Made by a program: the position numbers and the translations under genes. A model generated the notes under the pieces. The model saw nothing but the letters and a program-made list of their open reading frames with translations. It ran no database searches and had not been told where the DNA came from. 52,924 nt of DNA from Sulfolobales archaeon (GTDB lineage Archaea > Thermoproteota > Thermoprotei_A > Sulfolobales > AG1). The DNA lies in NCBI GenBank assembly GCA_038897115.1, contig JAWAXC010000006.1:1-52924 (forward strand), read 5' to 3'. Below, piece after piece: positions 3,896 to 51,555 of this stretch (positions are counted from its first letter, which is position 1; every line of letters begins with the position of its first letter).

Positions 3896-4477
3896 GTGGA
3901 TATGAGTTTTGGTAGGGATATAAAAGGTATGGTTAAAGATATTTTAGTTACATCTAGTCATAGGCCTTCTAGAAGGGTTAGATCCTTTATAAATGATCTC
4001 GTGAGAACTATAGCTAGGGCTAAGAAGATTAATAGGGGTAAAAAGAGCCTAGATGATCTTGCAGGGATCATGTTTCTGGAGGGCTATAGAACATTAATAG
4101 TGGTTAACACATGGAAGGCGAATCCAGGTAGAATGGATATTTATAAGAGAATAGATAAAAGCTTAGTTAGAATAGGCTATATCGTAATTAGATCTATAAA
4201 GTTAAGTAGAGAGCAAAGGCTATCCACATGCTCTATCAGATCCCCTAAGATAGTATCTGATAAATGTTCATCCACTATGTGTGAGACCGTTAAAGAGATC
4301 TTAAAGGAGGTGCTGGAGATAGGGGATAAGCTAGAAGGTGGGGAGACAGAGGATGGGATGATCCATATAGAAGGTGGGGATGGTATGATATATATATGGT
4401 TTTCTAAGAATGGAAAGAGGTGTGGGCCAAGAATTGGGATCCGATCAGCGGTTAGAACATATAAAGAGGGTTCATAA
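3896..4477 (+). CDS. Archaeal Brix-domain ribosome-biogenesis protein (Imp4-like)
   Basis: The N-terminus carries the Brix signature VTSSHRPSRRVRSFINDL, as in archaeal Imp4/Brix proteins, which are thought to bind pre-rRNA during ribosome assembly. At 193 residues it is the usual size for a single-domain archaeal Brix protein. The middle (SLDDLAGIMFLEGYRTLIVVNTWKANPGRM) shows the conserved strand and G-NPG pattern, interrupted here only by my reading. GTG 3896 has GGGGAG nine bases upstream; ATG 3902 is the alternative. It lies between the HAD gene and Pcc1, and Brix/Pcc1 neighbourhoods are common in archaea. Confidence 0.8.
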   Translation: MDMSFGRDIKGMVKDILVTSSHRPSRRVRSFINDLVRTIARAKKINRGKKSLDDLAGIMFLEGYRTLIVVNTWKANPGRMDIYKRIDKSLVRIGYIVIRSIKLSREQRLSTCSIRSPKIVSDKCSSTMCETVKEILKEVLEIGDKLEGGETEDGMIHIEGGDGMIYIWFSKNGKRCGPRIGIRSAVRTYKEGS

Positions 4478-4508
4478 GGCTTTGATAGAGATAGCTGGGC
4501 AAGGGAAG

Positions 4509-4718
4509 ATGTTGAGAGCAGTATGCGAGGCTATATCGCTTGAAATAAGATCTCCTCCTAATCCAGATAGAGTATATGCTAGGTCATCCTGTTCGGACAA
4601 CTTACTTGTAATCGAGATATATGCTCAAGATATCTCGAGTCTGAGGGCCGCACTTAACTCTTATCTATATTTATTACACGCGTCAATGAGATCTTTGGAG
4701 TTGCTGTCCAACCGCTAA
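4509..4718 (+). CDS. pcc1: KEOPS complex subunit Pcc1
   Basis: A small protein of the Pcc1/CTAG family, the dimerising subunit of KEOPS, which makes t6A37 on ANN-decoding tRNAs. The signature is visible: an N-terminal strand (ISLEIRSP), NPDRVYARSS, a second strand (LLVIEIYAQD) and a long helix (LRAALNSYLYLLHASMRSLELL). ATG 4509 gives 69 residues and places the first strand correctly; TTG 4482 with GAGGG upstream is an alternative, and the long frame from 4410 overlaps the Brix gene too far to be likely. No other KEOPS subunit is in the window. Confidence 0.8.
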   Translation: MLRAVCEAISLEIRSPPNPDRVYARSSCSDNLLVIEIYAQDISSLRAALNSYLYLLHASMRSLELLSNR

Positions 4719-6010: not shown

Positions 6011-7561
6011 CTATCTAAGATCTATTGCATCTCTATCATGATCAGGGGGATAGATTTTCACTAGAATAGCTATCGGATATGCTGGGGATGCTAGCACAGC
6101 TTCCCCTATATCTAGTGCTGGTAAGATCTCCTCTAATTCCCGCGGCATTACAGTAGACTCTCTAACGATCTTTCTATCTATATCTGATTTAATGCTATGA
6201 ATAATTTTTGTATTTGTGTTTTTAAGAGAATCTTCTCCTAAACTGCTTGGGGACTGAGATATAATTGCTATCCCTAGGTTCCACTTTCTAGTCTCTGAGA
6301 GCATATTCCTTATCACAGATGCTCCCTCACTTCTCTTAAATATATGGTGGGCCTCATCTACTATTACAAGTTTTTTCTCACTCATGAAATCTCTATTCTC
6401 TTTTGAAAGAATCTCTAGTATCTTTAATACTGATAGGGATGTGAGGGCTTTTATCGTTTCTCTATCTATAGTCGAAAGATCCATTATGGTGAAGCTTGAT
6501 GCAAAGATCTCATTTATATCTATTCTCCCCTCATTCTCAAATGATTCTTCGAGAAACGGCTGTATCTTCCTTAGAAGAGAGAACTTTGTTTCGGAGATCC
6601 ATCTAGCATCTTCTCTATAGACTTCTATATAGCTAGCTATCTTCTCAAATATATTACCCTTAATATTTGTAGCATCCTTTATAGATCTTATTACTGTTGA
6701 GAGTAGATGACTCTGAGCTGGTGATAGTTCTAAAACGCTTTCAAGGATTTCGAGGAGAAGTGAGGATCTGGTAGCTAGTTTCTCGAGCATAGAGGCTACT
6801 AGGGAAGTATTAACAGCTATATATTTATACTCGCTATATCCTCCAATGAGATCTCTATACTCGCCATGCCAGTCAAGTATTATAACTCTAACACCCTTCC
6901 TTCTAGATCTAATGGCTAGGGATGCTGCAGTAGTCGATTTACCAGATCCTGTTGAGCCGAATATCGCTATATGTCTTACAATACTCTCAACCGGTATATA
7001 TATCCTCTGCTTAACCCGAGACCTCGTGGTTTCCCCAATGGGGATGCCATCAGCTATGTGTTGAACCCTCGGTAGAGGGAGATCTTCTGTGTGGAGCGAA
7101 AATTCATCGGTGAAGAAGCTGTTTAGGGAGAGCAGCTCTCCACCATATTTTCTGTGGATCATGAGGGTGTTTATAAGCTCCTTTTGAGATAGCTCTCGGG
7201 TTCTAATGATTCTATTCGAGATAGCCTCCAGCATAGAGGATGCAAGCCTACATATCAATCCTGATTCCGGCTTTCTATCTAAGCATATAACTACTGTGCC
7301 TCCTAAGTACTTAGTAATCCTGGTTATAATATATATTTGTGATGATCTAGAGATCTTTTCCCTTATCATCTGAACCATATTCCTAATAGCCTTTTCAGCA
7401 GACTCCTGGAGATCCTCTTTAGCCTTCTTACCATCAAGCCTTACTAATACTTCGAAACCAGATACATATAGATCTTCCCCCTCTAAAGAGATTCTATAGA
7501 CGCCTCTCTCAACTGCTGTGTCGGAGATCCTATTTTTAAAGATTCTATGAAGCATCTTCAC
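6011..7561 (-). CDS. HerA-like hexameric ATPase/helicase
   Basis: A P-loop ATPase of the HerA/FtsK group (DUF87). Walker A is GSTGSGKST (residues 202-210), followed by the HerA-typical LDWHGEY; Walker B is LVIVDEAHH (398-406), then a sensor-like ISQSPSS. The first 190 residues are a variable N-terminal region. HerA proteins usually act with the nuclease NurA in DNA-end processing, but no NurA is nearby. Its 5-prime end overlaps the TFB-like gene upstream by 17 bases, so the two are probably co-translated. Being outside a herA-nurA-mre11-rad50 cluster, it is more likely a HerA paralogue than the repair HerA. Confidence 0.82.
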   Translation of the reverse strand: MKMLHRIFKNRISDTAVERGVYRISLEGEDLYVSGFEVLVRLDGKKAKEDLQESAEKAIRNMVQMIREKISRSSQIYIITRITKYLGGTVVICLDRKPESGLICRLASSMLEAISNRIIRTRELSQKELINTLMIHRKYGGELLSLNSFFTDEFSLHTEDLPLPRVQHIADGIPIGETTRSRVKQRIYIPVESIVRHIAIFGSTGSGKSTTAASLAIRSRRKGVRVIILDWHGEYRDLIGGYSEYKYIAVNTSLVASMLEKLATRSSLLLEILESVLELSPAQSHLLSTVIRSIKDATNIKGNIFEKIASYIEVYREDARWISETKFSLLRKIQPFLEESFENEGRIDINEIFASSFTIMDLSTIDRETIKALTSLSVLKILEILSKENRDFMSEKKLVIVDEAHHIFKRSEGASVIRNMLSETRKWNLGIAIISQSPSSLGEDSLKNTNTKIIHSIKSDIDRKIVRESTVMPRELEEILPALDIGEAVLASPAYPIAILVKIYPPDHDRDAIDLR

Positions 7562-8219
7562 CAGCTCTCCTTAGATACTCAGAGATCATATGATCTACGT
7601 TCGTAAGCTCCCTCGAGAGATCTTCTATAACAGATATCCTCGCTATCAAACTCCTGGCGCTCTCCACAGCACATTTGATCCTCCTAATATGAACTCTACT
7701 TAATCCAAAGAACTTCGAAACCTGACTATATATGATCGGATCGTTTAGCGCTACTTTTGCAGCGATATATGCAGCGGCAACCTTCCCCCTAGTTGTTCTA
7801 GAATATAGACTTGGATAGTCCCTCAGTATGTCGAGAACCTTTCTAAGGACAGGGCTTCTATCGAGTAGACTTTCTACAAGATTATCCTTAACATGTGTGA
7901 AAAGCCTGTAAAATCCAGATCTATTTGCAATGCCTATTATAACATCATCCCTTACAACCACACCTTTTCTAAGCCTTCTAGCCCCGATAACCCTTTTATA
8001 GGTTTTATATATATGTCCAATATTTATTGATGCCTTGGTTATCCTGGATCTTCTATCCTCTCCCTCAGCTATATCTCTAGCTTTTCTAAGCCTTTTAATA
8101 GCCTCGGTTTCACTCTCATATATAACCTCAAGTACAGATCCGCAGCTACTGCATACCATATAGCCTCGGTGTATATCATATACCACTTCTCTAGATCCGC
8201 AGTATATGCATGATGACAC
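7545..8219 (-). CDS. Divergent TFB-like (TFIIB-family) protein
   Basis: The N-terminus is a complete TFIIB-type zinc ribbon (CIYCGS, then CSSCGSVLEV). The C-terminal half has a cyclin-fold pattern (SRTTRGKVAAAYIAAKVALND, VSKFFGLSRVHIRRIKCAV). At 224 residues it is about a hundred shorter than general TFB, and the WRAF-type B-reader/linker sequence seen in the TFB at 50584-51555 is absent. TFB paralogues modulate promoter choice in archaea. The start of the HerA-like ATPase overlaps this gene, suggesting a shared task. Whether it binds a TBP-DNA complex cannot be told from sequence. Confidence 0.7.
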   Translation of the reverse strand: MSSCIYCGSREVVYDIHRGYMVCSSCGSVLEVIYESETEAIKRLRKARDIAEGEDRRSRITKASINIGHIYKTYKRVIGARRLRKGVVVRDDVIIGIANRSGFYRLFTHVKDNLVESLLDRSPVLRKVLDILRDYPSLYSRTTRGKVAAAYIAAKVALNDPIIYSQVSKFFGLSRVHIRRIKCAVESARSLIARISVIEDLSRELTNVDHMISEYLRRAGEDAS

Positions 8220-8267
8220 ATAGATCCCTATAGATCCTAGTGTAGGTAATACTACATCTCCCTTTTC

Positions 8268-8329
8268 ATCAGATCCTTATCCACCCCGGCTCTCCCAGGG
8301 GGATGGGTGAAAATATATGGACATCTGAT
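8268..8329 (-). other. GC-rich stem-loop between lysS and the TFB-like gene
   Basis: ATCAGATCC (8268-8276) pairs with GGACATCTGAT (8319-8329, two bases bulged), enclosing GC-rich sequence (8281-8309) with CACCC/GGGTG and CCCC/GGGG complementarity. It begins just past the lysS stop and upstream of the TFB-like start, so it could be a 3-prime end structure, a leader or a small RNA. Confidence 0.4.
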
Positions 8330-8344
8330 CTAAAAGATCTTGAT

Positions 8345-9904
8345 TTACTTGAGATAAAGATCTAGTAATCTAGGATTCAGCTCTACAGCGCATTGGAACT
8401 CATCTGGAATTACATATATAAATGGAATCACATCCTTTATCGAGCTAAGCCCAGAAAGCACCATTGAAAGCCTGTAAAGCCCTATACCAACACCCCCAGT
8501 TGGTGGGAGCCCATATTCAAGGCTTCTAACATAGTCTTTATCCATTGGGTGGGCCTCTAAATCTGCTCTACCAGATCTCTTTCTAAGCTCCTCTTCTTCC
8601 TTGAAGAAGTAATATTGAAGAACAGGGTTGTTGAGCTCTGAGTATCCATTGCCTATCTCTAAACCCTTAATAAATAGCTCGAATCTCTCGCTATATCTAG
8701 GATCGCCTCTATATGGTCTAGCTAGTGGGGAGATATCTCTTGGATATAGTGTGACGAAGGTTGGGTTCTCTATCTTAGGCTGTGCAACTTTTTCAAATAT
8801 CTTCTCTAAGATCTTCCCCTTTCTAGGATCTGTTGTCTCGAGACCAAGGGATCTTGCGATCTCCAGTATCTCATCCTCACCCCTACCCTTAATATTTATC
8901 TTCCCATACTGCTCTATAGCGTCTTCAAGCGAGATCCTCCTCCAAGGCCTTCTAAAGTCGAGGATATATGTCTCTTTATCTCCCTTCACCTCAACCACAT
9001 AGTCTCCATAAACACTTCTAACAGACTCCGATATGAGCTCCTCAACAAGTGCCATGATATCATTCCAATCAGCAAAAGCCTGGTAGATCTCTAGCTGTAC
9101 AAACTCAGGATAGTGGGTTGCATCTATATCCTCATTTCTAAAACATACAGAGATCTCATAGACTCTGAAGAGCCCTGCAACAACCAACCTTTTTAGATAT
9201 GTCTCAGGTGCTATGCTTAAATATGCCTCCCTTTTAAGAGCCTCTATTCTAGTTACGAAGGGTTTTGCGAGTGCTCCTCCATATATGGGTTGGAGCTTTG
9301 GTGTATGAACCTCTATAAAGCCCTTATCATTCAAGATCTTCCTCATATTATATTCTAGCCTATATAGATTAATTATACTCTGTCTAACCCTAGAGTTAAG
9401 CATTATATCTAAATACCTCTCCCTATACCTCTGCTCAGGATCTTTGATACCGAATTCGTGAAAGGGTATTGGTCTCCATGAGATAGAGAGTATCTCTATA
9501 CTCTCGGCCAGCACAGAGACCTCTCCTGCCTTAGTTCTTATAACCCTGCCCTTTACACCGATTATATCGCCCTTATCTATGAGCTCTAATAACTCGAGAT
9601 CTTCTTTCCTAATCACATCACTTCGAACAACCACTTGGATCTTGCCTGTATTGTCATAAAGATCTATGAATGTTATTTTACCATGCCTCCTTATATGCCA
9701 GATCCTGCCAGCAACAGAGACTATATCGCTACTCTCCTCACCAGGCTTTAACCAGCTATATTTAACAGCTATCTCAGAAGCAAAAGCAGATACCTCATAT
9801 CTATATGACACGAGGTAGGGGTCTCTCCCCAGCTCCCTGAGCCTCTTTATCTTTTCCTCAACCTCCTCAGCCCACATTCGCAACATCCTAAGATATCCTA
9901 GCAA
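8345..9904 (-). CDS. lysS: Lysyl-tRNA synthetase, class II
   Basis: Charges tRNA-Lys. The N-terminal OB fold (about residues 55-155: VSVAGRIWHIRRHGKITFID, then GDIIGVKGRV) binds the anticodon; the catalytic core has motif 2 (CFRNEDIDATHYPEF) and motif 3 (GGVGIGLYRLSMVLSG). At 519 residues it is a normal length. This is the class II form; many euryarchaea use the unrelated class I enzyme. The start at 9904 (MLGYLRMLRMW) could also be the ATG six codons on (MLRMW). It stands 35 bases from the Hel308 stop and may share its transcript. Confidence 0.95.
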   Translation of the reverse strand: MLGYLRMLRMWAEEVEEKIKRLRELGRDPYLVSYRYEVSAFASEIAVKYSWLKPGEESSDIVSVAGRIWHIRRHGKITFIDLYDNTGKIQVVVRSDVIRKEDLELLELIDKGDIIGVKGRVIRTKAGEVSVLAESIEILSISWRPIPFHEFGIKDPEQRYRERYLDIMLNSRVRQSIINLYRLEYNMRKILNDKGFIEVHTPKLQPIYGGALAKPFVTRIEALKREAYLSIAPETYLKRLVVAGLFRVYEISVCFRNEDIDATHYPEFVQLEIYQAFADWNDIMALVEELISESVRSVYGDYVVEVKGDKETYILDFRRPWRRISLEDAIEQYGKINIKGRGEDEILEIARSLGLETTDPRKGKILEKIFEKVAQPKIENPTFVTLYPRDISPLARPYRGDPRYSERFELFIKGLEIGNGYSELNNPVLQYYFFKEEEELRKRSGRADLEAHPMDKDYVRSLEYGLPPTGGVGIGLYRLSMVLSGLSSIKDVIPFIYVIPDEFQCAVELNPRLLDLYLK

Positions 9905-50583: not shown

Positions 50584-51555
50584 CTATGTTAGGGGTAGGT
50601 TTAGCTTTAGCGCCTTTACAATCTCCTTATATCTATTTCTAACCGTAACCTCGGTCACCCCAGCTACCATAGCTATTTCTTTCTGAGTCTTTTTCTCGTT
50701 ATTTAGGAGGCATGCTATGTATACCGCCGCAGCAGCTATCCCAGCAGGGTCTTTCCCAGCACCTATACCTGTATCCCTTATCTTCTTCAGGATATCCTTT
50801 GCAGTTGCCTCTATACTCCCACTTAGACCTAGTGTGCTTATTATCTTTGGTACATAGTGGAATGGATCTGGTTTCGGCATCTCAAGCCCCAGCTCCTTCC
50901 AGTCTAGCTCTTTATAGAGGAGTCTGAAGCATCTGGCCAGCTCCTTCCTCCCGCTTCTTGTGTATTGTGCTATCTCATCTAGGCTCCTCGGAACATTCAT
51001 GATCCTGCATGCTGCGTAGAGGGCTGCGGCTACAACACTCTCTATAGCCCTCCCCCTCACAAGGCCTGCCTCAACAGCCTTTCTATATATTATCGCGGCC
51101 TGCTCCTGCACCTCCTTCGGCAATCCAAGGGAGTTTGCTAGCCTCTGAAGCTCTGAGCTAGCCTGTGTTAGGTTTCTATCTATAGCGTTCTGAACCTTTG
51201 TTCTGATCTGCCACTTTCTTATCCTAGCATACTCCATTTTCTTCTTAAGATCCAGCTTCTTACCAGTAGCATCTCTATCCTTATAATCTATAATAGTCAC
51301 AAGACCTATATCCTCCATCGCGGGGGCGAGGGGAGAGCCAGACCTAGTTCTCCTCTCCCTCTCCTCCGGCGTGAATGCTCTCCACTCAGGCCCTTGATCC
51401 ACAATCCTCTCCTCTAGAACCTCCCCTGTCTCCTCGCATATATAGGCTCCCCTAGCTATATCTATCACTATTTTATCAGGCGGGCATCTAACCTCTTGGT
51501 TAGAGTCTTCCCTAACCTTTACAGCCACCTCGTTAACTCCGGAAGCCATATTCAA
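50584..51555 (-). CDS. tfb: Transcription initiation factor B (TFB)
   Basis: The general archaeal TFIIB homologue that recruits RNA polymerase to TBP-bound promoters. The N-terminal ribbon reads [21 protein letters not shown], then [12 protein letters not shown] (B-reader region) and two cyclin repeats ([36 protein letters not shown] with [16 protein letters not shown]). Only two of the four ribbon cysteines are present; Sulfolobus TFB has the same change, so this is normal. Length 323. TTG 51555 or ATG 51549 could start it; TATA-like boxes lie at about 51585-51618. Confidence 0.96.

Follow-up and report, generated by a model that had tools for sequence, protein, structure and literature searches.

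Two overlapping genes on the minus strand, one encoding a TFB-like protein and one encoding an ATPase, were predicted in the window, the whole analyzed stretch of 52,924 nucleotides from a hot-spring archaeon. The TFB-like gene (7545-8219) has a GTG start and encodes 224 amino acids. It was characterized by ORF calling, Pfam, an alignment of homologues and a predicted model, and is assigned below as TFB3-like. The ATPase gene (6011-7561), also with a GTG start, encodes 516 amino acids, and ORF calling, NCBIfam, a tree and a predicted model point to a CedD-like protein. The ORF calls confirm the report of the earlier note that the ATPase gene begins inside the TFB-like gene, with an overlap of 17 bases at 7545-7561. 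An alternative in-frame ATG at 7555 lies nine bases after GGAGAG and is better spaced; with this start the overlap is 11 bases, and the true ATPase start, GTG or ATG, is a matter of inference. Based on Pfam, a D/K/N-group class II tRNA synthetase (8345-9904) lies upstream of the pair with a Ski2-like helicase beyond it, and a homoserine dehydrogenase and a Pcc1-like protein are encoded downstream. The Pcc1-like ORF (4410-4718) shares 68 bases with the ORF before it, the two together covering 3896-4718 on the plus strand.

The TFB-like protein contains a TFIIB zinc ribbon (PF08271, E-value 4.3e-8; C4, C7, C23, and C26), no B-finger region, an abbreviated core and one cyclin-like C-terminal domain; the Pfam TFIIB cyclin domain has no match in this ORF. 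Across 19 aligned homologues, C4, C7, C23, R141, T142, R144, and H177 are invariant, and the zinc-ribbon cysteines and an RTxRxK patch are kept, indicating that the gene is under constraint. The gene is also intact in all four genomes of its family that carry the pair, so that decay of the TFB-like gene, which the earlier note had named as a refuting condition, was rejected. A profile built from the homologues outside family f11 retrieves the f11 gene separated from cedD by a single gene (E-values 2e-26 to 3e-13). Family f11 is taken here as Sulfolobaceae from the CedD cut-off, the genome layout and the thermosome/tfb3/cedD order, which matches the gene numbers of S. islandicus and S. acidocaldarius. 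Without the zinc ribbon, the C-terminal part aligns with Sulfolobaceae TFB3 at an hhalign probability of 95 when all non-f11 sequences are used and of 72 with the four sequences of f1, the family of the window, compared to at most 71 with canonical TFB repeats. The CR1 and CR2 repeats tie as the source of this domain. A PDB sequence search with the protein gave no match at 0.001, and a Foldseek search with its model gave no row at an E-value of 0.001. In the VIA rows the model reaches Z-scores of 5-6.8 to TFIIB cyclin repeats, level with unrelated folds, which makes the cyclin reading of the C-terminal domain weak.

Judged by these sequence comparisons, the protein is assigned as a TFB3-like truncated paralogue. 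The known TFB3 proteins (SiRe_1717, SSO0280, and Saci_0665) have in common with it the zinc ribbon, the lack of a B-finger, the abbreviated core and a promoter with a DNA damage-response element (DDRE). SSO0280/Saci_0665 is described as TFB3 with a zinc ribbon, no B-finger and an abbreviated core; it is reported to be UV-induced and to compete with TFB1 for RNA polymerase (PMC2246294). SiRe_1717 is named Tfb3 (PMC10470591). In Sulfolobus, TFB3 is reported to activate the ups and ced genes upon DNA damage. Compared to Sulfolobaceae TFB3, the window protein has a longer C-terminal domain that includes an HTH-like block (SRVHIRRIK), a block that is degraded in the Sulfolobaceae proteins, and its gene forms a predicted operon with cedD. 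The window also encodes a canonical full-length TFB (50584-51555, minus strand), 42 kb from the TFB3-like gene, with a zinc ribbon that does not have the usual cysteine pattern. Another short zinc-ribbon TFB-like ORF of 158 amino acids (L113:8576-9052, contig C27) and more TFB paralogues (contigs C12 and C98) were found in the same genome, G000.

The ATPase was previously described as HerA-like. It contains the DUF87/HerA central domain (PF01935, E-value 1.8e-24), and its top NCBIfam model is CedD (NF053655, E-value 4.9e-86), far ahead of HerA (3e-23) and CedB (1e-15). The CedD score of 289.5 bits falls short of the curated cut-off, 600, as is true of every genome outside f11: some match to NF053655 exists in 213 of the 214 genomes examined from the GTDB order, and the 26 above the cut-off all belong to f11. 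The HerA equivalog is not reached either (82 bits, cut-off 800). In a tree of 41 ATPase-domain sequences, the window ATPase and three f1 homologues group together (support 100/99), inside a 22-sequence group with eight f11 CedD proteins (98/96) and a wider 24-sequence group around CedD (82/72). The 22-sequence group is separate from eight HerA-group and five CedB sequences; the tree does not include five HerA candidates missed by the Walker pattern (L118, L123, L125, L126, and L128), and one long-branch sequence (G000_C7b) was removed. Separate HerA-group sequences are present in the same genome (G000_C129 and an ORF on contig C90). No NurA was found among the Pfam results for six neighboring genes. 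HerA-NurA identity was thus rejected from family scores, tree and neighbors, and the missing NurA, which the earlier note had found odd, is no anomaly for an ATPase of the CedD/VirB4-like kind.

The predicted ATPase model (pLDDT 78) has a putative VirB4-like N-terminal domain at about residues 9-150, followed by a HerA/VirB4 RecA core with Walker A at about 202-209. The core aligns equally well with Sulfolobus HerA 4d2i (Z 29.3, 333 residues, rmsd 4.5), also the top PDB sequence match, and with VirB4 4ag6 (Z 28.6, 326 residues, rmsd 3.4). Only VirB4/TrwK structures cover the model from about residues 1-10 to 509-516, with Z 17.6-20.9 over 371-427 residues and an rmsd of 8-9 Å, which is large, whereas HerA structures begin only at about residues 133-165. 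Despite the large rmsd, this span fits the VirB4-like N-terminal domain published for CedD (SiRe_1715), which is reported to be required for DNA import and not for export (PMC11868833). By hydropathy, no N-terminal transmembrane segment was found in the four f1 ATPases; the maximum 19-residue hydropathy of the window ATPase is 1.43, compared to 2.34-3.34 in 8 of 8 Sulfolobaceae CedD proteins. Published work places such a segment in about half of CedB/CedD/VirB4 proteins. The window ATPase resembles the known CedD proteins (SiRe_1715 of Saccharolobus islandicus; the SSO0283/Saci_0667 family) in its core, its clade and possibly its kind of N-terminal domain, and tfb3 lies within two genes of cedD in Sulfolobaceae as well. 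It differs in having about 30% identity to them and no N-terminal transmembrane segment, and its gene overlaps tfb3 directly on the same strand. With HerA-NurA it shares the FtsK-HerA superfamily motor core, whereas no NurA partner lies among the neighboring genes scanned, and the N-terminal domain and the clade are different. The Ted system of Thermoproteales and bacterial VirB4 type IV secretion systems also have a VirB4-like DNA-transfer motor; they use one VirB4 protein, whereas the window system would use CedB, in two ORFs, and CedD instead.

The pair is not a product of chance: homologues of both ORFs lie side by side on one strand in three other genomes. Within f1, the arrangement occurs in 4 of 4 well-covered genomes, with gaps of -17 (G000), 10 (G001), 77 (G002), and 3 bases (G004). 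The upstream neighbor is the tRNA synthetase in G000 and G001, whereas G002 and G004 have gcvH/gcvT-like genes there (products assigned by eye), so that the pair outlasts its surroundings. In the two other f1 genomes, G003 and G005 (76 and 63% complete), no close tfb3-like or cedD match and no CedB of f1 type were found. Among 13 stretches read from f11, tfb3 is followed by a thermosome gene and then cedD on the other strand in 11, G204 and G188 being without this order. In 25 of 29 f11 genomes, tfb3 and cedD are about 1.7-2.1 kb apart with one gene between them, as counted by hand among the 31 genomes after exclusion of G189 and G208, which have no strong CedD match. The exceptions are G194 (5.5 kb), G188 (17 kb), G204 (73 kb), and G205 (different contigs). 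No adjacent pair occurs among the other families compared, where the nearest distance is 11 kb (G125). Of nine genomes in other families that consist of a single contig, eight have the two genes 22-112 kb apart and one has them 616 kb apart; tfb3 and cedD are more linked than chance in single-contig genomes, which are not phylogenetically independent. The proposed link between a DNA-pumping ATPase and a TFB paralogue thus holds, as a real, co-oriented and overlapping pair; side-by-side conservation extends to f1, is relaxed to one intervening gene in most Sulfolobaceae, and is replaced in the other families compared by separation, often within about 110 kb, so that one refuting condition of the earlier note, separation in nearly all relatives, applies in part. 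A HerA-like ATPase/thermosome/Urm1 neighborhood in Sulfolobales is already in print (PMC2948915; PMC4569737), and the passages on this neighborhood seen in these reports do not mention TFB3. A literature search, mostly at title level, returned no description of tfb3 and cedD as an operon.

A DDRE of the ANTTTC type (ATTTTC then ACCC; 8309-8314, minus strand) lies 95 bases before the TFB3-like start. In Sulfolobus, ANTTTC is reported at -39 to -44 from the transcription start in promoters inducible by UV and in every tfb3 promoter tested (PMC5817253), and is reported to be bound by Orc1-2 (PMC9738581). All four f1 tfb3-cedD promoters contain ANTTTC at -86 to -95 from the start codon, where the chance is 0.17 each by mononucleotide shuffles. 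This spacing is longer than in Sulfolobus, and by eye no clear TATA box was seen at the Sulfolobus distance after the DDRE in f1 promoters. ANTTTC also occurs in 9 of 11 f11 tfb3 promoters (0.32 by shuffle) and in 10 of 15 tfb3-like promoters of other families (2.8 expected). The longer motif WWWANTTTCR, which was derived from sites inspected earlier (ANTTTC alone had been set beforehand, from the literature), occurs at -110 to -70 in 14 of 19 tfb3-like promoters and in none of 171 other genes, taken from f1 stretches only. The remaining promoters have one mismatch (four promoters) or three (one promoter); L050 was excluded from the promoter set. A second promoter block, TAGTATTAC (8246-8254, minus strand), lies about 30 bases before the TFB3-like start; in several families, tfb3-like promoters carry it too, about 30-45 bases ahead of the start. 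In other families, just 1 of 20 loci has a DDRE before cedD itself. Genome-wide, ANTTTCACCCNNC is not enriched in G000, with 6 sites compared to 5 for its reversed control. For WATAYTTTCRS there are 29 sites in G002 (24 in the control) and 16 in G001 (33 in the control), indicating that most sites are background and that only position marks real ones.

The sole gene downstream of WATAYTTTCRS sites common to G001 and G002 is the pilin gene of a second operon. This operon, present in all four f1 genomes that carry the pair (L109:4697-12245 on contig C7 of G000, L110, L111, and L112), encodes a prepilin, an ATPase of T2SSE type, a membrane protein of T2SSF type, and a protein of about 800 amino acids. 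At its end stands CedB, which in each genome is divided between two ORFs, one for the N-terminal part and one for the ATPase. The ATPase and N-terminal parts of CedB score 255 and 56 bits, below the cut-off of 700. The best models of the pilin and the membrane protein are UpsA (E-value 6.5e-5) and UpsF (E-value 4.8e-4), both far below cut-off. The protein of about 800 amino acids in G001 (Desulfurococcaceae archaeon AG1) has a marginal UpsX match (E-value 0.0028), and a profile of it matched 18 of 214 genomes with no Sulfolobaceae among them, which counts against the name UpsX. From these matches, it is predicted to be a type IV pilus operon, perhaps Ups-like. A DDRE precedes the pilin gene in 4 of 4 genomes. 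With a matrix from the four tfb3 sites, this operon ranked first among all other genes examined in each genome (80, 60, 42, and 34 genes in all); its promoters had been inspected by eye before this test.

Collectively, these results suggest that the pair is probably an operon of the crenarchaeal DNA-damage response, with a regulator and an import motor on one predicted transcript. After DNA damage, an Orc1-2-type regulator would bind the DDRE and the promoter would fire. TFB3, acting in trans with a canonical TFB as in Sulfolobus, may then raise transcription from DDRE promoters, including that of its own operon in a feed-forward manner and that of the separate type IV pilus/CedB operon with the same element. 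Since CedD would be made from the same message as TFB3, the import motor would rise with the activator, and CedD and CedB might together power the import of partner-cell DNA, which would then serve as a template for repair.

The earlier note had proposed a transcription-linked DNA-handling module. The gene link behind this proposal stands, and the coupling is most simply explained as regulatory, through the predicted shared damage-response promoter, not as a physical machine. In a physical version, the overlapping frames would make TFB3 and CedD assemble, TFB3 would dock on the import motor and its zinc ribbon would link RNA polymerase with the DNA coming in or with the activity of the motor. 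The damage response would then be switched by the import state as well as by Orc1-2; we consider this physical version very unlikely. A housekeeping HerA-type ATPase for DNA end resection, preceded by a TFB paralogue by chance, is an equally poor prospect and already largely refuted: the DUF87/HerA domain and the 4d2i match agree with it, whereas the tree, the separate HerA-group proteins of the same genome, the lack of NurA in the Pfam results of neighboring genes and the alignment of the modelled N-terminal domain with VirB4 argue against it.

Somewhat less improbable, though still unlikely, is an operon of convenience, in which a TFB3-like factor with general duties and a CedD-like ATPase have no functional link. 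Adjacency is confined to one family (four genomes of two genera) and the genes are apart in most families, which would agree with this reading. It is opposed by the closeness of the genes in Sulfolobaceae, the changing flanks around the pair in f1, the DDRE common to the pilus/CedB operon and the published control of ced genes by TFB3. The poorest candidate is an integrated conjugative element, a mobile module in which a dedicated TFB-type regulator accompanies a VirB4-like transfer ATPase. TFB-like regulators are found on archaeal elements, and the modelled fold is VirB4-like, but the chromosomal neighbors are housekeeping genes (tRNA synthetase, homoserine dehydrogenase, and Ski2-like helicase), no tRNA was found in the window, and the ATPase tree follows host families.

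Both kinds of protein are known; the operon, the wide spread of the motif and the pilus/CedB co-regulon are new. Gene order ties the regulator TFB3 to the import motor CedD in two distant lineages, and the damage-response element lies upstream of TFB3-like genes in several families well outside Sulfolobaceae. Together these features point to a predicted damage-induced DNA-exchange regulon that predates Sulfolobus, suggesting that the damage-triggered DNA-swapping program described in Sulfolobus has an older origin and a broader distribution than that group. The candidate parts of this predicted regulon are TFB3, CedD, the split CedB and the type IV pilus. Crenarchaea outside Sulfolobaceae are reportedly without Ups, and how they pair cells for DNA exchange is now a directly testable question. 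In G000, ATTAGTTTCGC was also observed 37 bases before a prepilin-like ORF directly after a Rad50-like ORF (L256:2374-2797, contig C51), and this prepilin-like gene may also belong to the damage regulon.
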